Assembly: GCF_004305975.1 (NCBI RefSeq)
Contig: NZ_BHZI01000022.1
Location: forward strand, 1-33,219
Length of the DNA: 33,219 bases
Reading direction: 5' to 3'
DNA from: Streptomyces otsuchiensis
Lineage (GTDB): Bacteria > Actinomycetota > Actinomycetes > Streptomycetales > Streptomycetaceae
Position 1 is the stretch's first letter. Every line of letters starts with the position of its first letter. Both the position numbers and the translations under genes were made by a program. Positions 4,960 to 32,485 of the stretch are shown here, one piece after another. The notes under the pieces were generated by a model. That model saw nothing but the letters and a program-made list of their open reading frames with translations, did not search any database and had not been told where the DNA came from.

Positions 4960-5703
4960 TCAGCCGGCCGGCTTCTCCCAGACCGAGACATGGCGGGTGC
5001 TCTCCCCGGTGAAGGGCTCCTCGCCCCAGCCCTCCCAGCGTTCGGACAGTCGCAGTCCCGCCAGCCGTGCCATGAGGTCCAGTTCGGCCGGCCAGACGTA
5101 GCGGAACGGGATGCTGCGCCTGCGTCCCCGCCCGTCGTCGGTCACCGTGAGGTAGTTGGAGCTCATCGCCTGGGTCGCCGGGTCGTAGCGGTCGTAGGCC
5201 CATCCGTTCCCGCTGACGCGGAAGGGCACGGCGTCCTGGCCGGGCGGGAGGCGGCGCAGGTCGGGGACGGCCACCTCGACGACGAAGCGGCCACCGGGGT
5301 CGAGCTGGGAGGCGACGGAGCGGAAGCACTCCACCTGGGCGTCCTGGGTGGTGAGGTTCATGATCGTGTTGAAGACCAGATAGGCGAGGGAGAAGCCGCC
5401 GCCCACCCGCGTCGTGGCGAAGTCACCGATGGTCACCTCCACGCGGTCGCCTCCCGGCTTGGCCCGCATCCTGGCCGTCATCGCGCGGGAGAGGTCGATG
5501 CCGTGCACCGGTACGCCGCGCCGCGAGAGCGGGAGCGCGATGCGTCCGGTGCCGACGCCCAGTTCCAGTGCCCGGCCACCGCCGGACCGGGCGGCGAGGA
5601 ATCCGGCGGTCTTCTCGATGGTCTCGCGGCTGAACTCGCTGTCGGTGGAGTCGTCGTAGGTCGCGGCGATGGGCTCGCCGAAGTAGCCGTCGCGGTCGTC
5701 CAT
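4960..5703 (-). CDS. Class I SAM-dependent methyltransferase
   Basis: This 247-residue cytoplasmic protein has the Rossmann methyltransferase fold: motif I ALELGVGTGRIALPL (residues 45-59), an acidic end of strand 2 in VHGIDLSRAM, motif II IGDFAT, and a post-motif region LDPGGRFVVEV. The substrate is not evident. Closest in feel to the broad 'methyltransferase domain' family found near antibiotic or small-molecule modification genes, but no such partner is seen here. A TAGGTT box ends 6 nt before the ATG, suggesting a leaderless transcript. It faces away from a second methyltransferase of similar length with which it shares the domain plan but little sequence. Confidence 0.88.
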   Translation of the reverse strand: MDDRDGYFGEPIAATYDDSTDSEFSRETIEKTAGFLAARSGGGRALELGVGTGRIALPLSRRGVPVHGIDLSRAMTARMRAKPGGDRVEVTIGDFATTRVGGGFSLAYLVFNTIMNLTTQDAQVECFRSVASQLDPGGRFVVEVAVPDLRRLPPGQDAVPFRVSGNGWAYDRYDPATQAMSSNYLTVTDDGRGRRRSIPFRYVWPAELDLMARLAGLRLSERWEGWGEEPFTGESTRHVSVWEKPAG

Positions 5704-20914: not shown

Positions 20915-22180
20915 TCAGCCGTTCAGGGCCCGGTGGCGCTCGCCCAGCCGGCGGATTCCCTCCTCGGTCAGCGTCCCGTGCAGCCGCAGCCGTGCGATGC
21001 CGCCGTCGGGATGGATGTCGATCCGGGCGTGGGTGGCGGCCGGGGCGGCGTCGAGCAGGAAGCGGTGGACCGTGTCGGGCTGCAGCCGGGTCGCCGGGAG
21101 CGCCCGCCTCCAGCCGGGGGCGGCGTGGTCGGCCGGGTCGGTGCCGTCGGAGGCGTCCAGCAGCCACAGTTCGGCCCAGCCGGCGGAGTTGCCCTTGTAG
21201 TAGCCGGTGTCGATCTCCACCGCGCGGACCACGCCGTGGCCGGCGAGGGCGTAGCGGACCCAGTCGTGGCCGTCGTCGCGGCGCCGCCGGGTCTCCCAGC
21301 CGTCCTCCATGCTCCGGGCGCGGCCGGGGCGGATCGAGTTCACGGGCGGGGAGTAGAAGCGGTCGGAGGCGTCGAGCGCCTGCCCGCCGTGTTCCAGTGC
21401 CAGCAGGTCGAAGGTACCGAGGGCGGCGAGCCAGGCCGGGTCGGGCAGGGCCTCGCCGTGGACGCGCAGCCGGGCGACGCCGCCGTCGGGGTGCTGGCAG
21501 AGCCGCAGGTGGGTGAAGCGGCGCTCGACGTCGACCGCGAAGCCGTTGGCGGCGTGGCCGCCGACCTCGGTGCGCGGCACCAGCTCCGTCCAGCGCACGT
21601 CGCCGCTGAGCAGTTCCCCGGGCGCGGGGGTGCCGGGCACCGCGGCGGCCTGGAGGGAGACGGCGCGCGGGTGGTTGCCACGGAAGTGGGCGGTGTCCAC
21701 GATCACGCCGCGGATCACCCCGGGTACGCCGAGGCGGACCAGGGCCCAGTCGTGGTCGTCGGGCGAGGGGTGCGGGCGGCCCGCGTCGGGGCCGCGACGC
21801 CGCCGCGTCTCCCAGCCGTCCATGACCTTGCCCTTGTGGCCGAAAGTCTCGGGGTCGAACCGGGCGGGCCCGGGGAGCAGCAGGTTCTCGCGCTCCGCGA
21901 AGAACTCGTCGTTCGCGGCGATGACCCCCGCGCCCAGGAGCCGGTCCGCGAGGTCCGGCAGCCGGGTGAAGTCCAGGGCGCGGGTGCGGTAGTCGGCGTA
22001 GGGGTCGCCGCCCGGGTAGGGAGCCGCGGCGCCGGTGAACGCCGGGGCGGCGGGCCGGAGCTCGGTGCCGGGCAGGCCGTCGGGGGCGGCGGTCCGGGCG
22101 GGTGGCGCGGTGTCGTCACGGGCGGTGGTCCGCTCACCGGCGGCGGAGGGGGTTGCGGGGTACTGGTCGGGTGCGCTCAT
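20915..22180 (-). CDS. alc: Allantoicase
   Basis: Allantoicase hydrolyses allantoate to ureidoglycolate and urea. The 421-residue protein shows the family's duplicated jelly-roll: repeat 1 with [18 protein letters not shown] and [11 protein letters not shown] (residues 113-171), repeat 2 with [12 protein letters not shown] and [11 protein letters not shown] (from 290). The PGDxxxADY-type start [15 protein letters not shown] lies at residues 58-71, so about 45 residues rich in Ala, Pro and Thr precede the usual beginning. No alternative start codon lies within that stretch, and the ATG at 22180 overlaps the allB stop by 4 bp (ATGA), so I keep the long form. It is the second gene of the allB-alc unit, behind the operator at 23655. 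Confidence 0.96.
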
Positions 22181-23526
22181 GGGCGAGGGGGCGTCCTTTC
22201 CAGAAGCCGGCCGACGCGGGCGGTGGGCCGCCCGTGGTCGGCGATGAGACGACCGCGCAGCCAGGTGGCGCGCACGACGCCGTGCAGGCGGCGGCCGGCG
22301 TAGGCGGTGACGGGGTTGCGGTGGTGCAGCAGGGCGGGGTCGACGGTGAAGGCGGCCTCGTCGTCCAGCACCGCGAAGTCGGCGTCACGGCCCGGTTCGA
22401 CGGAACCCTTGGTGTGCAGCCCGGCCAGCTTCGCCGGGGCGGTCGCCATCCACCGGGCGACATCCTCCAGGGTGTGGCCGCGGCGGCGGGCCTCGGTCCA
22501 GACGGCGGGCAGGCCGAGCTGGAGCGAGGAGATACCGCCCCAGGCGGCGCCGAAGTCGGGGACCTTGAGGTCGGGGGTGCAGGGTGAGTGGTCGGAGACG
22601 ACGCAGTCGAGCGTGCCGTCGGCCAGTCCCGCCCACAGCGCGTCCCGGTTGGCCGCCTCCCGGATCGGCGGGCAGCACTTGAACTCGGTCGCGCCGTCCG
22701 GCACCTCCTCGGCGTCGAGGGTCAGGAAGTGCGGGCAGGTCTCGGCGGTGACACGCACCCCGTCGCGCCGGGCGGCGGCGAGCAGCGGCAGGGCGTCGGC
22801 GGAGGAGAGATGCAGGATGTGGACGCGGGCGTCCAGGCGGCGGGCGAGCGCGACGAGCCGTTCGACGGCCTCGTTCTCGGCGGCGCGGGGGCGGGAGGCG
22901 AGGAAGTCCGCGAAGCGGAGGCTGCCGTCGGCCGGTGGCGCGGCGGCGAGGTGCGCCGGGTCCTCGGCGTGGACGATCAGCAGGCCGCCGAAGCCGGCGA
23001 TCTCGGTGAGCGCCGCGGTGAGCCGCTCGGGGTCGAGTTCCGGGAACTCCTCCACGCCGGACGGGGAGAGGAACGCCTTGAAGCCGAAGACTCCGGCGTC
23101 GTGCAGGGGCCGCAGCTCGGCGGTGTTGCCCGGGACCGCGCCGCCCCAGAACCCGACGTCCACGTGGGCCCGGGGCGCGGCGACGGCCCGCTTGACCGCC
23201 AGATGGGCGGGGGTGGTGGTCGGCGGCACGCTGTTGAGCGGCATGTCCAGCAGGGTGGTGACCCCGCCGGCGGCGGCCGCGCGGGTGGCGGTGGTGAACC
23301 CCTCCCAGTGCTCACGGCCGGGGTCGTTGACGTGGACGTGGGTGTCGACCAGCCCCGGCAGCAGGGCCAGGTCCCCGTAGTCCCGGACGGGGACGCCGGG
23401 CGGCGTGGGCAGGTCGTGGGCGGCGACGTCCTCGATCCGGCCGCCGGCGACGACGACGGTGGCGGGGCGCAGGCCGGTGGGGGTGACCACGCGGGTGGAG
23501 CGCAGGACCAGTTCGGGTGGGCGCAC
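22177..23526 (-). CDS. allB: Allantoinase
   Basis: Allantoinase opens the hydantoin ring of allantoin to allantoate. The 449-residue amidohydrolase has all binuclear metal ligands: [10 protein letters not shown] (His63, His65), carboxylated Lys in [10 protein letters not shown] (Lys150), IVHAEDP (His186), [10 protein letters not shown] (His239) and VVSDHSPC (Asp312). The His-x-His-x-N-D-P-G motif and the ETCPHFLTL stretch separate it from dihydropyrimidinase. The start is GTG 23526, three bases after AGGAGAGG, a strong though close ribosome-binding site. The leader is about 130 nt long from the 17-bp dyad TTCAAC-N5-GTTGAA, the presumed AllR operator shared with the divergent allR gene. Confidence 0.97.
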
Positions 23527-23654: not shown

Positions 23655-23671
23655 TTCAACGTTCTGTTGAA
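23655..23671. promoter_or_regulatory. Putative AllR operator
   Basis: TTCAAC-GTTCT-GTTGAA is a perfect 6+6 inverted repeat with a 5-bp centre in the allB-allR gap. The same site with one mismatch occurs at 31542-31558 in the promoter of the urate operon. I see it nowhere else upstream of a gene in the window. The binding protein is inferred from the adjacent IclR-type gene. Confidence 0.78.
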
Positions 23672-23828
23672 GAGGTTGCCGCCGTCGTCGCGGCCCGTCA
23701 ACCCCGCCACGGTGCGCTGCGGCAGCCCGGTCGGCCACCCGGCCCCCTTCCGCAGCGCGGAAGGCCGGTCTTGCCCAGCGGAACGGGCCGGGCCCGGCCG
23801 GGAGACGGCCATGATCGCCGGATCCCGG

Positions 23829-23865: not shown

Positions 23866-24651
23866 GTGGCTTCGTCCGACGAGCGCAGGCCGGCCACCGG
23901 CAACGGTGGCGTCCAGTCCCTTGAGCGCGCCTTCGACCTGCTGGAGCGGATGGCCGACGCCGGCGGGGTCACCGGACTGAGCGAGCTGGCGTCCAGCAGC
24001 GGGCTGCCGCTGCCGACCATCCACCGGCTGATGCGGACCCTCGTCGCCTGCGGCTACGTCCGCCAGCAGCCCAACCGCCGGTACGCACTGGGCCCCCGCC
24101 TCATCCGGCTCGGGGAGAGCGCCGCGCGCCCCCTGTCGACCTGGGCGCGCCCGCATCTGGCGCGGCTGGTGGAGGAGACCGGGGAGACCGCCAACATGGC
24201 GCTGCTCGACGGTGACGAGGTCGTCTATGTCGCCCAGGTGCCCTCCCGCCACTCGATGCGGATGTTCACCGAGGTGGGCCGCCGGGTGCTGCCGCACGCG
24301 ACGGGGGTCGGCAAGGCCCTGCTGACGCAGCGCCCGGACGCCGAGGTGCGGGCCCTCCTGGCCCGCACCGGCATGCCCGCCGCCACCGACCGTACGCTCA
24401 CCACCCCCGACGCCTTCGTCGCCGAACTGACCTCGGCGCGGCAGGCGGGGTACGCGGTCGACGACAACGAGCAGGAGATCGGGGTGCGCTGTGTCGCCGT
24501 ACCGGTCCCCGACTCCCCCACCCCGGCCGCGATCTCCATCTCGGGACCGGCCGGACGGGTCACCGTGGAGTCCACGGCGACGGTGGTGCCGCTGCTGCAG
24601 GAGGTGGCGCGCGACCTCGCCGCCGCCCTCGCCACCAACCAGCCGGCCTGA
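23866..24651 (+). CDS. allR: IclR family regulator, AllR-type
   Basis: The 261-residue protein has an IclR winged helix (residues 16-75: VQSLERAFDLLERMADAGG, LSELASSSGLPLPTIHRLMRTLVACGYV in parts, NRRYALG) and an IclR effector domain (80-255) with EETGETANMALLDGDEVVYVAQVPS in parts, VLPHATGVGKALL, GYAVDDNEQEIGVRCVAVPV in parts and PAAISISGPAGRV. Streptomyces AllR is an IclR repressor of allantoin genes; the location next to allB-alc and the shared 17-bp dyad support that role here. The usual inducers of AllR proteins are allantoate or glyoxylate; which applies cannot be read from sequence. Start GTG 23866 is supported by GGAAAGGA 7 nt upstream. Confidence 0.93.
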   Translation: MASSDERRPATGNGGVQSLERAFDLLERMADAGGVTGLSELASSSGLPLPTIHRLMRTLVACGYVRQQPNRRYALGPRLIRLGESAARPLSTWARPHLARLVEETGETANMALLDGDEVVYVAQVPSRHSMRMFTEVGRRVLPHATGVGKALLTQRPDAEVRALLARTGMPAATDRTLTTPDAFVAELTSARQAGYAVDDNEQEIGVRCVAVPVPDSPTPAAISISGPAGRVTVESTATVVPLLQEVARDLAAALATNQPA

Positions 24652-26103: not shown

Positions 26104-26132
26104 TTGATATTCCACGATGAGAAACCTACTCT
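26104..26132 (+). promoter_or_regulatory. Malate synthase promoter
   Basis: TTGATA (26104-26109), exactly 17 bp, then TACTCT (26127-26132) form one of the best sigma-70-type promoters in the window. The spacer contains TTCC-N7-GAAA (26110-26124), a weak dyad that could bind an IclR-type protein. The leader to ATG 26206 is about 67 nt. The stretch is AT-rich compared with its surroundings. Confidence 0.65.
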
Positions 26133-26205: not shown

Positions 26206-27828
26206 ATGTCCGCATCCGCGCCCGACTCGCCGGTTGTCGTCGACGCCGCCGCCCTCCCACGGCAGGAGGAGGTGCTGACGCCGGAGGCGCTCTCCTTCCT
26301 CGCGGAGCTGCACCGGCGGTTCGCCTCGCGCCGCACCGAACTGCTGGCCGCCCGCGCCGAACGCCGGGCGGAGATCGCCCGGACCGGCACCCTCGACTTC
26401 CTGCCCGGTACCGCCCACATCCGCGAGGGCGACTGGCAGGTGGCCCCGGCCCCGCCGGCCCTGGCGGACCGGCGGGTGGAGATCACCGGGCCGACCGACC
26501 GCAAGATGACGGTCAACGCCCTCAACTCCGGCGCCCGCGTGTGGCTCGCGGACTTCGAGGACGCCTCCGCGCCCACCTGGGAGAACGTGGTCGGCGGCGT
26601 GCTCAACATGGGTGACGCCTTCCGCCGCCGCATCGACTTCACCGACGCCCGCGGCAAGGAGTACGCGCTGCGGCCGGACGAGGAACTGGCCGTCGCGGTG
26701 ATGCGCCCGCGCGGCTGGCACCTGGACGAGCGGCACCTCACCGTCGACGGCGTCCCGATCCCCGGCGGGCTGGTCGACTTCGGCCTCTACTTCTTCCACC
26801 ACGCCGCGCTCCTCGCCGAACAGGGACGCGGCCCGTACTTCTACCTGCCGAAACTGGAGAGCCATCTTGAGGCGCGGCTCTGGAACGACGTCTTCGTCTT
26901 CGCACAGGAGCGGCTCGGCATTCCGCAGGGGACCGTGCGGGCCACCGTTCTGATCGAGACGATCACGGCGGCGTTCGAGATGGAGGAGATCCTCTACGAG
27001 CTGCGCGACCACGCCGCGGGGCTCAACGCCGGGCGCTGGGACTACCTGTTCTCCATCGTCAAGAACTTCCGTGACGCGGGCGCCCGGTTCGTCCTCCCGG
27101 ACCGCAACGCCGTCACCATGACCGCGCCGTTCATGCGTGCCTACACCGAACTCCTGGTCCGCAGCTGCCACAAGCGGGGCGCGCACGCGATCGGCGGCAT
27201 GGCGGCGTTCATCCCGTCCCGGGACGCCGACGCGAACACCGTCGCCTTCGAGAAGGTCAAGGCCGACAAGGACCGCGAGGCGGGCGATGGTTTCGACGGT
27301 TCGTGGGTGGCGCACCCCGGTCTGGTTCCGGTCGCCATGGAGTCGTTCGACGCGGTGCTCGGCGACCGGCCCAACCAGAAGGACCGGCTGCGCGAGGACG
27401 TGTCGGTGACCGCCGCCGACCTGCTCGCGGTCGACTCCCTCAAGGCCCGCCCCACCTACGAGGGGCTGCGCAACGCCATCGCCGTCGGCACCCGCTACCT
27501 CCAGGCGTGGCTGGCCGGCCGCGGCGCGGTGGCGGTCTTCAACCTGATGGAGGACGTGGCGACCGCCGAGATCTCGCGTTCGCAGATCTGGCAGTGGGTC
27601 AACGCCGAGGTCGTCTTCGAGGACGCGCCGGCCGGCCGCGAGAAGGCGACCGCGGACGTGGTCCGTGCTGTCGCCGCGGAGGAACTGGATGCCATCCGGG
27701 GCGAACTGGGCGATGAGGAGTTCGCGGCGGGCGGCTGGCGCCGGGCACACGACGTGCTGCTCCAGGTGGCGCTGGACGAGAGTTACGTGGACTTCCTGAC
27801 GCTGCCCGCCTACCAACTGCTCGACTGA
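26206..27828 (+). CDS. aceB: Malate synthase A
   Basis: Malate synthase condenses glyoxylate with acetyl-CoA to malate. The 540-residue protein has the length and motifs of the short A isoform: TDRKMTVNALNSGARVWLADFEDASAPTW in parts, MRPRGWHLDERHL, GPYFYLPKLESHLEARLWNDVF in parts, catalytic TVRATVLIETITAAFEMEEILYELR in parts, RWDYLFSIVKNF and GGMAAFIP. ATG 26206 follows AAGGAG by 10 nt. No isocitrate lyase gene is adjacent; instead purine genes lie on both sides, so its job here is probably to use glyoxylate from ureidoglycolate, as known for an S. coelicolor malate synthase encoded near allantoin genes. Its control is probably through the promoter at 26104. Confidence 0.97.
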   Translation: MSASAPDSPVVVDAAALPRQEEVLTPEALSFLAELHRRFASRRTELLAARAERRAEIARTGTLDFLPGTAHIREGDWQVAPAPPALADRRVEITGPTDRKMTVNALNSGARVWLADFEDASAPTWENVVGGVLNMGDAFRRRIDFTDARGKEYALRPDEELAVAVMRPRGWHLDERHLTVDGVPIPGGLVDFGLYFFHHAALLAEQGRGPYFYLPKLESHLEARLWNDVFVFAQERLGIPQGTVRATVLIETITAAFEMEEILYELRDHAAGLNAGRWDYLFSIVKNFRDAGARFVLPDRNAVTMTAPFMRAYTELLVRSCHKRGAHAIGGMAAFIPSRDADANTVAFEKVKADKDREAGDGFDGSWVAHPGLVPVAMESFDAVLGDRPNQKDRLREDVSVTAADLLAVDSLKARPTYEGLRNAIAVGTRYLQAWLAGRGAVAVFNLMEDVATAEISRSQIWQWVNAEVVFEDAPAGREKATADVVRAVAAEELDAIRGELGDEEFAAGGWRRAHDVLLQVALDESYVDFLTLPAYQLLD

Positions 27829-27901: not shown

Positions 27902-29323
27902 TCAGGCGTCGGCGGCCCGCCGGGCCAGCAGCCGGGCGGCGTCCCGGGCCTCGGCGGCGACGGCCCGCTCGTCGACCCGGAGCAACCGGCCGTCCTCGAC
28001 CACCGGTTGACCGCCGACCAGCGACAGCGTGACGGGGGCGGGCGCTCCCAGCACCAGTGCCGCGACCGGGTCCTCGATGGTCGAGTGGGCGAGGGTGTCC
28101 AGGCGCCAGAGCACCAGGTCGGCGAGTTTGCCCGGTTCCAGGGAACCGGTGTCCGCCGCCCGGCCCAGGACGCGGGCTCCGCCGTGGGTGCCGAGCCGCA
28201 GTGCCTGGCGGGCGGTCAGCGCCGACTCCCGGTGCGGCCCGAGCCGGTTGACCAGGAGCGCGTTGCGCAGTTCGGTGTGCAGCTCCCCGGCCTCGTTGGA
28301 GGCGGTCCCGTCGACGCCCAGACCGACGGGGACGCCCGCCGCCAGCATGTCCGGGACCCGGGCGATCCCGGCCGCGAGCCGCGCGTTGGAGGAGGGGCAG
28401 TGGGCGACGCCGGTGCCGGTCCGCGCGAACGCCGCGATGTCGGCGTCGTTCATGTGGACGCAGTGCGCCATCCACACGTCCTCGCCCAGCCAGCCGGTGG
28501 AGGCGAGGTAGTCGGTCGGCCCCATGCCGAACCGTTCGTGGCAGAACGCCTCCTCCTCGACCGTCTCCGAGCCGTGCGTGTGCAGCCGGACGCCCTTGCG
28601 CCTGGCCAGCTCGGCCGCGTCGCGCAGCAGACCGGTGGAGACGGAGAAGGGCGAGCACGGTGCCACCGCCACCTGGGTCATGGCGTCCGGCGCGGGGTCG
28701 TGGTGGGCGTCGACGGTCGCCTCGGTGGCGGCCAGCGCGCCGTCCCTGGTCTCGACGGCGAAGTCGGGCGGCAGCCCTCCGTCGGAGGTGCCCAGGTCCA
28801 TGGAACCGCGGGCCAGGGTGAAGCGGACGCCGAGTTCGGCGGCGGCCCCGATGACGGCGCCGGAGAGGTCTCCGCTGCCCCGCGGATAGACGTAGTGGTG
28901 GTCCATCGCCGTGGTGACGCCGCCGCGCGCCATCATCGCGAGGGAGCCCCGGGCGGCGGCGCGCACCATGGACTCGTCGATGCGGGCCCAGGTCGGATAG
29001 AGCGCCACGAGCCAGTCGAAGAGGTTGTGGTCGGTGGCCAGACCGCGCGTTATCCACTGGTAGAAGTGGTGGTGGGAGTTGACCAGGCCCGGGGTGACCA
29101 GGTGGCCGCTCCCGTCGATCCGCCGGGTCACGCCTCGCAGACCGGCGGGGGCCGGCCCCGCGCCGACCGACTCGATGCGTGCGCCCGCGACGACGACGTG
29201 GCCCCGGGCGTACTCGGTGTCCTGGGCGTCCACGGTCGCGACGGCGCAGTTCTCGATGACGATGCGCGCTTCCGGCACGCTCCCGGTGGCCGGGGAGGTG
29301 TCCGGGGTGGGCTGGTCCGCCAT
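27902..29323 (-). CDS. 8-Oxoguanine deaminase-like amidohydrolase
   Basis: The 473-residue amidohydrolase has the mononuclear-metal pattern of the AtzB/TrzN/guanine-deaminase group: LVNSHHHFYQWITRGLATD in parts (His84 and His86 as metal ligands), LHTHGSETVEEEAF, MAHCVHMNDADI and GLGVDGTASNEAGEL (metal Asp). The NSHHHFYQ start and the H-T-H-G-S-E-T segment are those I associate with 8-oxoguanine deaminase, also annotated as hydroxydechloroatrazine ethylaminohydrolase. The product of 8-oxoguanine deamination is urate, the substrate of the uricase encoded just upstream in the operon, which favours this role. Plain guanine deaminase is the main alternative. The 82-bp gap before it holds a 10-bp hairpin. 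No clear Shine-Dalgarno precedes ATG 29323. Confidence 0.88.
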   Translation of the reverse strand: MADQPTPDTSPATGSVPEARIVIENCAVATVDAQDTEYARGHVVVAGARIESVGAGPAPAGLRGVTRRIDGSGHLVTPGLVNSHHHFYQWITRGLATDHNLFDWLVALYPTWARIDESMVRAAARGSLAMMARGGVTTAMDHHYVYPRGSGDLSGAVIGAAAELGVRFTLARGSMDLGTSDGGLPPDFAVETRDGALAATEATVDAHHDPAPDAMTQVAVAPCSPFSVSTGLLRDAAELARRKGVRLHTHGSETVEEEAFCHERFGMGPTDYLASTGWLGEDVWMAHCVHMNDADIAAFARTGTGVAHCPSSNARLAAGIARVPDMLAAGVPVGLGVDGTASNEAGELHTELRNALLVNRLGPHRESALTARQALRLGTHGGARVLGRAADTGSLEPGKLADLVLWRLDTLAHSTIEDPVAALVLGAPAPVTLSLVGGQPVVEDGRLLRVDERAVAAEARDAARLLARRAADA

Positions 29324-29405: not shown

Positions 29406-30461
29406 TCAGAGGGTGTTGGTGAGGTCCGGCGGTATCCGCGCCTCCGCGCCCTCGCGCAGCACGGTGGCCTCGATCAGGCCGTAGGGGCGGTCGGCGGCGA
29501 CGTACACCTCGTTGTCGTTGGAGAGACCGAAGGGCTCCAGGTCGACCAGGAAGTGGTGCTTGTTCGGCAGCGAGAACCGGATCTCCTCGATCTCCGGGCG
29601 GCCTTCCAGCGCCCTGCTGCCCATCTGGTGGAGCGTCTGCTGCAGTGAGCGCGAATAGGTCTCGGCGAAGGCGTCCAGCACATGGCGGCGCACGGCCTCG
29701 TGGGACGCGTCCCAGTCGGGCTCGGGCCCGGGCCCGTCACCGGTCCAGCCGTGCCGCCAGATCCCGGTGACGTCGGTGGCCAGGATGCGGTCGTGGGCCT
29801 CGGGGAGCGTGGTGTAGCGGTCCTTGACGTAGCCCCAGAACTCGGAGTTGGTGGTGTTGAGGACGGTCAGGCCGGTCAGGCCGGAGAGCACCTCGAACCG
29901 GTCGCCGTCGTAGGCGACCTGGGCCAGCCGCCTCTCGCCGCCCGCGCGGACGAAGGAGTGCCGGGGCCGGTCCTCCCCCGCGGGGTGGTCCGCCCCCGCC
30001 GAGGGCTCGATCCGCCGCCAGCCGTGGGCCTCCACCCGGACCCGGGCCCGGTGGATCGACGGCTGCGTGGTGACGAAGTGGCGTGCCAGCAGCTGCGCGA
30101 AGACCTCGGCCGAGGTGATGCCGTGCCGTCGGGCGAACGCGTAGACCGTGTTCTTGGTGGTGTCGGTCGGCAGGACGGCCGCGTTGGAACCGGTGTAGTG
30201 GACGTCGGTCATGTCCCCGGAGAGCGCCACGGAGACGGTGAGGTCGGTGAGGTGGTGGGTGGCTCCGTCCCTGACGACGCGGACGACGCGGACCTCGGCC
30301 TTGCCGTACTGGTTCTGGCCCAGGACGACCGGCCGGCCGGTGGCGCGGGCCGGCCGGTCCTCTCCCGGCTGGACGGAGGACGGCTCCGGGGTGGACGGCG
30401 AACTCTGTGTCGGCGGCGGGCTGGACGGCTTCGGGGTGGGCTTCGGGACGGACGCGGTCAC
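29406..30461 (-). CDS. pucL: Urate oxidase (uricase)
   Basis: Uricase oxidises urate to 5-hydroxyisourate with O2, without cofactor. The 351-residue protein shows the catalytic residues: Lys54 in NQYGKAEVRVVRV, Thr99-Asp100 in VLPTDTTKNTVY, and His302 in SLPNKHHFLVDL; GLTVLNTTNSEFWGYVKDRYTTLPE in parts completes the tunnel fold. The usual start VVLGQNQYGK is reached only at residue 45; the first 43 residues are Pro/Ser/Thr-rich and without hydrophobic segment. GTG 30461 is taken because GAGGGAG precedes it by 11 nt and the upstream frame overlaps uraH; the extension remains even with this short start. Third gene of the uraD-uraH-uricase operon. Confidence 0.96.
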   Translation of the reverse strand: MTASVPKPTPKPSSPPPTQSSPSTPEPSSVQPGEDRPARATGRPVVLGQNQYGKAEVRVVRVVRDGATHHLTDLTVSVALSGDMTDVHYTGSNAAVLPTDTTKNTVYAFARRHGITSAEVFAQLLARHFVTTQPSIHRARVRVEAHGWRRIEPSAGADHPAGEDRPRHSFVRAGGERRLAQVAYDGDRFEVLSGLTGLTVLNTTNSEFWGYVKDRYTTLPEAHDRILATDVTGIWRHGWTGDGPGPEPDWDASHEAVRRHVLDAFAETYSRSLQQTLHQMGSRALEGRPEIEEIRFSLPNKHHFLVDLEPFGLSNDNEVYVAADRPYGLIEATVLREGAEARIPPDLTNTL

Positions 30462-30468
30462 GGCGCGG

Positions 30469-30870
30469 TCAGCTCCCTCGGTAGACGGAGTAGCCGAACG
30501 GGTTGAGCAGCAGGGGCACATGGAAGTGCTCGCCCGGGGTGAGGACGAAGGCGACCGTCACCTCGGGGAAGAAGGCCGGGGCGGCCGAGCCCGGCGCCGT
30601 GGCGGCCGCGTCGCGCTCGCCCAGGTATGGGCCGGTGACGAAGACCAGCCGGGCCTCGGTGCTGCCCGGCGGGGGCGCCGGCAGTTCGCGGCAGCGGCCG
30701 TCGCCGTCGGTCCGGCCCGTTCCGACGGCGGCCCAGGGCGCGCCCGGTCCGGGGCGGGCCGCGAGTTCGACGGCGACCCCGGCCGCCGGGCGTCCGGCGG
30801 AGGTGTCCAGGATGTGCGTGGAGACGGTGGCGGGGTGGCCCTCGCGCGGGGTGGCCGGGCTGCCGGTCAT
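30469..30870 (-). CDS. uraH: 5-Hydroxyisourate hydrolase (transthyretin-like)
   Basis: The 133-residue protein hydrolyses 5-hydroxyisourate, the uricase product, to OHCU. Family signatures are intact: STHILDTSAGRPA (catalytic His19) near the start, the HFHVPLLLNPFGYS region with the second His, and the C-terminal YRGS tetrapeptide. It acts as a tetramer in the cytosol. ATG 30870 overlaps the uraD stop by 4 bp (ATGA). The uricase GTG follows 7 nt after its stop, so translation of the three genes is likely coupled. Confidence 0.97.
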   Translation of the reverse strand: MTGSPATPREGHPATVSTHILDTSAGRPAAGVAVELAARPGPGAPWAAVGTGRTDGDGRCRELPAPPPGSTEARLVFVTGPYLGERDAAATAPGSAAPAFFPEVTVAFVLTPGEHFHVPLLLNPFGYSVYRGS

Positions 30871-31403
30871 CGGGGGTCTCCTTCGGTGGCGTCCGCCGGG
30901 GCGGCGTCGGCCAGACGGGTGAGCCGGATGCGGTTGATCTTCGCGAGTTCGGTCCGGACCACGGCCCGTTCGGCCTCGTCGGGGTTGTCCAGCCGGCTCA
31001 GCAGCGCGTCCCGCATCCGCGGGCCGGTGAGGCCGGTGGCGCAGATGAGGAAGACATGGCCGAACCGCTCCTGGTAGCGCAGGTTCAGTTCCAGCATCTC
31101 GGCGCGCAGCGCGTCGTCGGCCCCGGCCATGCCTGCCTGCTCCCGTGCGGAGTCGGGGTCGCCGGGGCGCGGCCTCCCGATGGGTGGGTGGGCGGCAATC
31201 GCCGCCGCGAGTTCCCGCCGGTCCAGGCGGGCGGTGGCGGAGTCGGAGAGCGCCAGCAGGGCGTCGAGACCCGGGTGCGGGCGGGCATCGAGCAGGGTGT
31301 CGGCCCAGGCGTGCGAGGCGCAGACGGTCAGCAGCGCGGCGCGGGCCCGCTCCCGGTCCTCGCCGTTCAGCCTGCGCAGCCCTGGGGGGGCCTGGGTCGT
31401 CAC
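30867..31403 (-). CDS. uraD: OHCU decarboxylase
   Basis: The 178-residue protein decarboxylates 2-oxo-4-hydroxy-4-carboxy-5-ureidoimidazoline to S-allantoin, completing the urate-to-allantoin conversion. The family motifs are present: AAHPPIG (His72, the catalytic base), SAREQAGM (Glu88, Gln89) and YQERFGHVFLICATG (His116). GTG 31403 is preceded by GGAGAAG 3 nt upstream. It is the first gene of the operon uraD-uraH-uricase-deaminase; its promoter carries the second copy of the 17-bp dyad, 139 bp upstream. Confidence 0.95.
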   Translation of the reverse strand: MTTQAPPGLRRLNGEDRERARAALLTVCASHAWADTLLDARPHPGLDALLALSDSATARLDRRELAAAIAAHPPIGRPRPGDPDSAREQAGMAGADDALRAEMLELNLRYQERFGHVFLICATGLTGPRMRDALLSRLDNPDEAERAVVRTELAKINRIRLTRLADAAPADATEGDPR

Positions 31404-31517
31404 GGGCTTCTCCGCTCTGCCGGGAACACGGCCTGCGCGACGGCGCCACCCGGTGTGCGACGGCGCGGCGTGGTGCGTGGCCGGGGACGGCGTGCGCCGG
31501 GGGCGGGTCCGTCATCC

Positions 31518-31558
31518 AGCTAAGCGACCCCGGCGGGGATCGTCAACACTTTGTTGAA
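31518..31558 (-). promoter_or_regulatory. uraD promoter with putative AllR operator
   Basis: On the minus strand, TTCAAC-AAAGT-GTTGAC (31558-31542) repeats the allB-allR dyad with one mismatch. TTGACG (31546-31541), the end of the dyad, is a good -35; 17 bp later TTAGCT (31523-31518) may be the -10. A repressor on the dyad would block polymerase directly. The spacer is itself a CCCCG-CC-GGGG-like dyad. The leader is about 108 nt. Confidence 0.72.
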
Positions 31559-31649: not shown

Positions 31650-32195
31650 TCAGGGCACGGCCCGGGGGCCCGGGCCCCCGGCGGCGGGCCCGTCACTCCT
31701 GTCGGCGCGCGCCGCCGCCTCCCGGTTGAGGTAGTTGTAGACCGTGAACCGGCTCACGCCGAGCGCGGTGGCGACGGTCTCGACGCCGTGCCGCACGGTG
31801 AAGGCACCCCGCGCCTCCAGCGCGACGACCACCTCCTGCTTGGCCTTGCGGTCCAGTTCGGCCAGCGGCATGCCATGACGCCGCCGCAGCCCGTCGAGCA
31901 GGTGCTCCAGCGAGTGCGACAGATGGGGCAGGCGCACGGCGGTGACCGGCGCGCCCTCCCATTCCAGCAGCACGTCGTCCCGGCCGGCCTCGGCCGGCGG
32001 TATCAGTTCCCCGCCCATCGCGGCGACCAGTGGGCTCACGGCGGTGACGAAGGCGCGGCGCCCGGCGGATTCGGAGGTCGACACGGCGGGGCCGGGTGTC
32101 CCGGCTGTTTCGGCACGGGGGGCGGCCAGGCGCCGGTCCCCGGGAGCGGCGCCGGGCTCGGCTCCGCCGCCGCTCTCCGGCGGTCCGGCGCTCAC
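31650..32195 (-). CDS. HTH_22-type (YheO/DauR-like) DNA-binding protein
   Basis: The 181-residue protein ends in a helix-turn-helix of the HTH_22 type seen in YheO and DauR regulators: LDRKAKQEVVVALEARGAFTVRHG in parts, then VETVATALGVSRFTVYNYLNRE (residues 112-158 overall). Residues 1-45 are disordered and Gly/Ala/Pro-rich. The middle part (46-108: RRAFVTAVSPLVAAMGGELIPPAEAG, WEGAPVTAVRLPHLSHSLEHLLDGLRRRHG in parts) replaces the PAS-like domain of YheO and may be a shortened sensor. GTG 32195 overlaps the stop of the upstream gene by 4 bp (GTGA). Placed beside the urate operon, it could be a second regulator of it; target and ligand are unknown. Confidence 0.8.
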   Translation of the reverse strand: MSAGPPESGGGAEPGAAPGDRRLAAPRAETAGTPGPAVSTSESAGRRAFVTAVSPLVAAMGGELIPPAEAGRDDVLLEWEGAPVTAVRLPHLSHSLEHLLDGLRRRHGMPLAELDRKAKQEVVVALEARGAFTVRHGVETVATALGVSRFTVYNYLNREAAARADRSDGPAAGGPGPRAVP

Positions 32196-32485
32196 GGTTG
32201 CTCCTTGGGCCCGGCCGGCTCATCGGCGGGCTGCTCACCGGCGGCCGGGTCGAGCGCGCTGACCTGGACGGAGATGCGCGTGGCGCCGGCCTCCAGCGCT
32301 CCGCGCAGCAGCGCCGACAGCGCGTCGAGCACCTCGTCGGTGGAGCCCTCGGCGGTGTTGCCGAACGGGCCGACGTCGACGTTCTCCAGCGGCGCGTCGC
32401 GCACCACCTCGCGCGCCACCACCGCGTGTCGCGGTGTGCGGTCGAGGTCGAAGGGCTCGGTGGTGAATTCCAGACGCAGTCGCAC
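32192..32485 (-). CDS. Thiamine-binding-like protein (MTH1187/YkoF family)
   Basis: This 97-residue protein resembles the MTH1187 / YkoF-type thiamine-binding superfamily: RLEFTTEPFDLD, AREVVRDAPLENVDVGPFGNTAEG in parts, and VLDALSALLRGALEAGATRISVQV in parts; a hydrophilic tail follows. Members are small ferredoxin-like oligomers that bind thiamine pyrimidine-like ligands; many have unproven roles. GTG 32485 lies 6 nt after TAGGTT, indicating a leaderless transcript. It overlaps the HTH gene by 4 bp, so the two are translated together, and the protein could be its ligand-binding partner (inference). Confidence 0.72.
   Translation of the reverse strand: MRLRLEFTTEPFDLDRTPRHAVVAREVVRDAPLENVDVGPFGNTAEGSTDEVLDALSALLRGALEAGATRISVQVSALDPAAGEQPADEPAGPKEQP

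Follow-up and report, generated by a model that had tools for sequence, protein, structure and literature searches.

A conserved TTCAAC-N5-GTTGAA dyad before purine-breakdown genes of Streptomyces and a candidate two-protein regulator

A 17-bp dyad, TTCAAC-N5-GTTGAA (M1), appears to be a genuine regulatory site, conserved upstream of Streptomyces genes for purine breakdown, and from the company it keeps in many genomes it is probably the operator of a gene pair encoding an HTH_22 and a Thiamine_BP-like protein (31650-32485), with the IclR-family regulator AllR using a second dyad, TTCCG-N5-CGGAA (M2). An earlier note on the same DNA had described M1 before allB and uraD and proposed that it is an AllR operator, through which a single IclR-type repressor governs both the urate-to-allantoin and the allantoin-to-ureidoglycolate steps; the shared site is upheld by the comparisons reported here, AllR as its owner is not. 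Features of the window, i.e., the whole stretch of 33,219 nucleotides of Streptomyces otsuchiensis DNA that was analysed, are listed in Table 1.

Table 1. Features of the window (strand "." for the dyads).
Feature	Position	Strand	Basis
alc, allantoicase	20915-22180	-	homology
allB, allantoinase	22177-23526	-	homology
M1 dyad before allB, perfect, TTCAACGTTCTGTTGAA	23655-23671	.	direct scan; cross-genome conservation
M2 dyad TTCCGCAGCGCGGAA, candidate AllR operator	23748-23762	.	only match to the IclR consensus in the window (0.02 expected)
allR, IclR-family regulator	23866-24651	+	homology
IclR-like site TTCCACGATGAGAAA before aceB; the adjoining degenerate M1 of relatives is lost here	26110-26124	+	sequence; relatives
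aceB, malate synthase	26206-27828	+	homologue annotated aceB, malate synthase A; conserved neighbour
8-oxoguanine deaminase family enzyme	27902-29323	-	homology
uricase	29406-30461	-	homology
uraH, hydroxyisourate hydrolase (transthyretin-like)	30469-30870	-	homology
uraD, OHCU decarboxylase	30867-31403	-	homology
Inferred uraD promoter: -35 TTGACG (31546-31541, overlapping M1), -10 TAGCTG (31522-31517)	31517-31546	-	conserved TTGACG-18-TAGCTT-like consensus
M1 dyad before uraD, one mismatch, GTCAACACTTTGTTGAA (TTCAACAAAGTGTTGAC on the uraD strand)	31542-31558	.	direct scan; conservation
HTH_22 (PF13309) protein, candidate M1-binding subunit	31650-32195	-	domain match; adjoins uraD in 28 of 30 loci
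Thiamine_BP-like protein, candidate sensor partner, overlapping the HTH_22 gene	32192-32485	-	below the Pfam cut-off in this copy

M1 in the window and in the genus

Direct scanning confirmed the perfect and the one-mismatch dyad described in the earlier note, as well as its observation that the DNA between them has no such site; the window as a whole holds no further M1 at ≤1 mismatch. At ≤2 mismatches a third match appears (5357-5373, two mismatches), and these three compare with a shuffle mean of 0.12, with none of 100 shuffles reaching three. In the genome scan that the note had suggested, covering 752 contigs and 6.15 Mb, perfect M1 occurs only twice, before allB and at C44:5862; the latter lies 40 bases upstream of a DUF6986 gene, whose product shows some similarity to HpcH/HpaI aldolases. 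At ≤1 mismatch there are six sites against four for a reversed control pattern, and at ≤2 mismatches 133 against 82. Three of the six (C38:17560, C83:6360, and C297:2963) were discarded, being located inside predicted genes. Given these control counts, an imperfect match alone is weak evidence, and the case for the M1 pair rests on conservation across species, not on the count here.

This conservation is extensive. Of 61 genomes of the genus, 56 have a perfect M1 and only 19 a perfect copy of the reversed pattern. M1 (≤1 mismatch) precedes allB in all 28 protein-fetched loci that hold this gene (of 30 loci) and in 27 of 29 further genomes (one of 30 had no allB in the stretch), i.e., in 55 of 57 over both sets; the same holds for 75 of 77 named loci, almost all of which bear the name Streptomyces (three of 80 without allB). 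Before uraD it was found, again at ≤1 mismatch, in 30 of 30 protein-fetched Streptomyces loci, every copy ending in C. Since M1 is thus kept in front of both genes, the two purine units share one site, as the earlier note had proposed. In the available parts of PMC6629963, SCO4972, SCO6209, SCO6247, and SCO6248 of Streptomyces coelicolor change together, which fits shared control.

The consensus of M1 over 63 uraD regions is TTCAACAAAgTGTTGACG, with a TAGCTT-like hexamer after a further 18 bases. From this arrangement the right arm of M1 is probably the uraD -35 box, and the conserved "mismatch" base would then be explained as belonging to that box. Generic sigma-70 scans reported no promoter, the inferred uraD promoter included.

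M1 also marks other genes. All 23 BLAST-confirmed copies (of 25 family matches) of a gene of family PF04126 (cyclophilin-like) begin with it, each time as a perfect dyad; in the loci inspected this gene adjoins cydA (e.g., L068:5074-5466), and a role of its product in purine or urea metabolism is a lead provided by this site. The dyad precedes ureA in 10 of 30 protein-fetched loci (56 of 61 genomes carry ureA) and the DUF6986 gene in five of 30. Upstream of a catalase gene (katA) near hyi it was found in five of five regions, three of these loci having been fetched for their M1 and the other two (L325 and L326) by protein; two catalases of 55% identity (L232 and L250) without M1 were excluded by the identity limits. 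On plasmid p3 of Streptomyces angustmyceticus (L431, fetched by its HTH_22 protein), M1 precedes both an annotated catalase gene and uraD, and the unannotated record L432 has M1 at the place matching the catalase site of L431. The plasmid record, 27 kb in length, holds a urate/glyoxylate cluster of catalase, HTH_22, uraD, uraH, pucL, and aceB genes with M1 and M2 sites. Uricase yields H2O2, and co-regulation of a catalase with it is, therefore, sensible. Perfect dyads were also seen, each in a single genome, near an isochorismatase/AraC pair (L075), an O-methyltransferase gene (L080), and a GDSL lipase gene (L058), and six perfect sites among 39 genomes from outside the genus had no query gene within their 3-kb loci. 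The earlier note had held that many sites away from purine genes would count against its proposal; with sites at urease, catalase, and PF04126 genes, and degenerate ones at malate synthase, this objection applies in part. The genome of S. otsuchiensis itself retains uricase, allantoinase, and allantoicase, but neither a urease gamma subunit nor a PF04126 protein was found in it, and no match to glyoxylate carboligase exceeded the cut-off of that family.

Division of M1 and M2 between genes

M2 was first seen on scanning gcl upstream regions. It is of the type WTTYCRYW3RYGRAAW, the IclR-family operator consensus given in the accessible text of PMC8222616, and it marks genes of the pathway. M1, in contrast, does not conform to TTYCRY-N3-RYGRAA, as its half-site TTCAAC has an A at the consensus C, and with its 17 bases it falls outside both groups of operators in that text. 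The occurrence of both dyads before each gene is given in Table 2.

Table 2. Distinct upstream regions with M1 or M2 at ≤1 mismatch. Matches below the identity limits or starting after residue 26, upstream sequences shorter than 300 bases, and duplicate upstream sequences were dropped; for some of the allB, DUF6986, ureA, and katA regions, M1 had been the criterion for fetching the locus. Shuffles predict per gene at most 0.10 regions with M1 and 2.10 with M2.
Gene	M1	M2
allB	128/134	88/134
uraD	63/68	3/68
PF04126	23/23	0/23
ureA	11/31	0/31
katA	5/5	0/5
DUF6986	8/32	26/32
gcl	0/31	30/31
hyi	0/37	34/37
aceB	4/91	10/91
uricase	0/9	0/9
8-oxoguanine deaminase	0/26	0/26

The two dyads thus divide the genes between them. 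Hyi is reportedly a target of AllR in S. coelicolor, and at the genes so regarded, hyi and gcl, M1 is absent from the regions counted. All 32 DUF6986 regions have M2 or M1; the six without M2 all have M1 (three of the six were fetched for it), and among protein-fetched loci M2 was found in 26 of 29.

In the accessible portions of PMC11438217 and PMC12772271, AllR or a homologue acts on the allantoin genes of S. coelicolor, and the former mentions allantoic acid and DNA binding by AllR. The arrangement described here resembles that system in having an IclR-type AllR beside allB and an IclR-consensus dyad, M2, at allB, gcl, and hyi. It differs in that M1 is another sequence, marking uraD, PF04126, and ureA, where M2 is almost lacking.

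At some promoters the two kinds of site are physically joined. A degenerate M1 (≤2 mismatches) was found in 71 of 91 aceB regions and in all 71 it abuts an IclR-type site at offset +1. At allB the sites abut at offset 0 in 49 of 130 regions, a number that rises to 59 when all offsets between -2 and +3 are allowed. For DUF6986, 11 of 19 regions have M1 abutting the IclR-type site with an offset of -1. This fixed abutment, the position of M1 next to allR in most genomes, and the three-box sites described for IclR regulators in the accessible text of PMC8222616 speak for binding of M1 by AllR, which might also occupy the two dyads together, e.g., as a tetramer where they abut. We weighed AllR first as the owner of M1 and now consider this unlikely, since hyi and gcl have M2 only, uraD, PF04126, and ureA have M1 almost without M2, M1 departs from the IclR consensus, and AllR is kept where M1 at allB has been lost (in genomes G010 and G023 and in Streptomyces sp. 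SBT349, few cases as these are). The assignment of the dyad to AllR in the earlier note is weakened by the same observations and, further, by the association of M1 with HTH_22 genes outside the genus (see below).

The HTH_22/Thiamine_BP-like pair

The gene pair carries only generic database names ("hypothetical," "thiamine-binding," or "helix-turn-helix" protein). A Thiamine_BP-like gene adjoins the HTH_22 gene in 66 of 66 assessable Streptomyces loci (of 68). In a class-wide draw any HTH_22 match was obtained for 34 of 296 genomes; strong matches (E below 1e-40) occurred in 25 of the 28 genus genomes drawn and in none of the 268 others. Across 25 aligned proteins, most of the presumed recognition helix, GVSRFTxYNYxN, does not vary. 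The HTH_22 protein showed no further domain, and a sequence search of solved structures with it returned nothing useful (best E 0.24). Regulators of the YheO/DauR kind likewise have a C-terminal HTH_22 domain; they differ from the present case, where a short protein, encoded beside urate genes, is accompanied by a Thiamine_BP-like partner that is a protein of its own except in G121, where the two are fused. No description of M1 or of the pair was found in the literature searched, outside which most subscription journals lie, and the pair is apparently undescribed.

Lineages other than Streptomyces also point to this pair. In G121, a genome of another family, a fused Thiamine_BP-HTH_22 gene, the N-terminal half of which resembles the Thiamine_BP-like protein, is followed by M1 (TTCAACAAACTGTTGAC), then M2, then the uricase gene. 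Further members of the cluster are uraD, uraH, two xanthine/urate permeases, malic enzyme, DUF6986, and hyi; an M2 upstream of hyi ends 32 bases short of this gene. In Tsukamurella tyrosinosolvens, uraD-uraH-pucL and the thiamine-binding and HTH genes are transcribed in opposite directions from a 113-base gap that contains M1 and, nearer to uraD, an M2-like site. When each gap was shuffled 20,000 times, M1 at ≤1 mismatch arose by chance 26 times for Tsukamurella and five times for G121. M1 and HTH_22/Thiamine_BP-like genes hence co-occur in independent lineages, i.e., Streptomyces, G121, and Tsukamurella. The M2-like sites near M1 in the last two may bring AllR there as well and count against assigning M1 to the pair. 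The DUF6986 gene of G121 (L427:3223-4479) lies beside the malic enzyme gene in the urate cluster; the copy in the genome of S. otsuchiensis is at L064:5919-7244 (C44). A weak match to the malate-synthase TIM barrel (E 0.018) hints that DUF6986 may be a glyoxylate enzyme.

The losses observed point both ways. Several genomes with AllR but no intact or visible HTH_22 gene have a weak M1 or none. G043 lacks the HTH_22 gene, as does the incomplete genome G050; in G010 it is split into two out-of-frame pieces, and in the loci of SBT349 and Streptomyces radicis it is not seen. In G043 and G010, M1 is missing or weak and AllR and an IclR-type site are retained; SBT349 has AllR and misses M1 at allB, uraD, and aceB. 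The M1 of aceB shows 4-6 mismatches in G043, G010, SBT349, and S. radicis, next to an IclR-type site that is kept. Several cases run the other way. G031 has lost the uraD M1 and that of G307 has two mismatches, with HTH_22 intact in both; the aceB M1 is lost in the genome of S. otsuchiensis and in G307 despite HTH_22; the S. radicis locus keeps a one-mismatch M1 at allB, no HTH_22 gene being seen there; and in Streptomyces the HTH_22 gene itself has no M1 upstream. Of 66 distinct uraD regions, 57 have both an adjacent HTH_22 gene and M1, and a mechanical test of this association gave p = 0.06. The regrouping of loss cases in favour of HTH_22 was done by hand after this test: the four M1-bearing uraD regions scored as having no adjacent HTH_22 gene (G051, G057, G058, and G358) come from genomes with HTH_22 elsewhere, and G010 had been counted among the genomes with an intact gene, although its copy is split (perhaps through an error of sequencing). 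G226, G272, and G350, which have no clear HTH_22 orthologue, were excluded from the comparison; of their one-mismatch M1 places, those inspected (two of six in G226 and two of 17 in G350) were not near a query gene. In G043 (L329) AllR lies beside malate synthase, with no close uraD in the genome and no allB in the 11-kb stretch, an arrangement that hints at a role of AllR in glyoxylate control.

The partial separation of HTH_22 from the uraD M1 in G031 and G307 would also fit a third regulator encoded elsewhere. As far as the accessible text of PMC4991794 goes, SCO6209-SCO6211 are under the influence of HbpS-SenS-SenR, with a SenR site predicted before SCO6209, on which SenR is proposed to act. 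The SenR site printed there is, however, a different sequence from M1, and the joint presence of M1 and HTH_22 next to urate genes in G121 and Tsukamurella also makes such a third owner rather improbable. That the dyads are chance repeats, as the six sites against four controls in this genome might suggest, is extremely improbable and was rejected, being contradicted by the conservation at uraD and PF04126 (about zero expected from shuffles) and by the excess of perfect M1 over the reversed pattern in the genus.

A possible two-operator scheme

Taking the HTH_22/Thiamine_BP-like pair as the probable owner of M1, we infer that the HTH_22 protein and its overlapping partner would form one regulator, a repressor most likely relieved by urate or a ureide. 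Repression is suggested because M1 overlaps the inferred uraD -35 box and directly precedes the PF04126 start codon, so that binding of the pair at either place would block transcription; at uraD an activator role may also be envisaged, as the centre of M1 lies about 40 bases before the inferred transcription start. The regulon of the pair would comprise the urate-to-allantoin operon, the catalase that removes the H2O2 of uricase, and the allantoinase-allantoicase unit, and in some species also urease and the PF04126 gene. AllR, as an IclR repressor, would use M2 to control allB and the genes of the glyoxylate branch (hyi, gcl, DUF6986, and malate synthase). Where M1 and M2 abut, at aceB and at part of the allB and DUF6986 promoters, both inputs could act.

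With some hesitation we lean toward a wider view, in which a split repressor, consisting of a Thiamine_BP-like sensor and an HTH_22 subunit, would run urate catabolism through TTCAAC-N5-GTTGAA in several actinobacterial lineages. In Streptomyces its regulon would have added catalase, urease, and PF04126, with abutting AllR sites at allantoinase, malate synthase, and DUF6986, and the two sensors would meter the urate/nitrogen side against the glyoxylate/carbon side of the pathway.

If this is correct, the single operator assumed so far for purine catabolism in Streptomyces gives way to two that interlock, and a gene pair with only generic names would be the regulator of urate use. It would also call for caution in assigning a dyad beside a regulator gene to that regulator. 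Furthermore, PF04126 and DUF6986 would become linked to purine and glyoxylate metabolism, which would make their functions testable.
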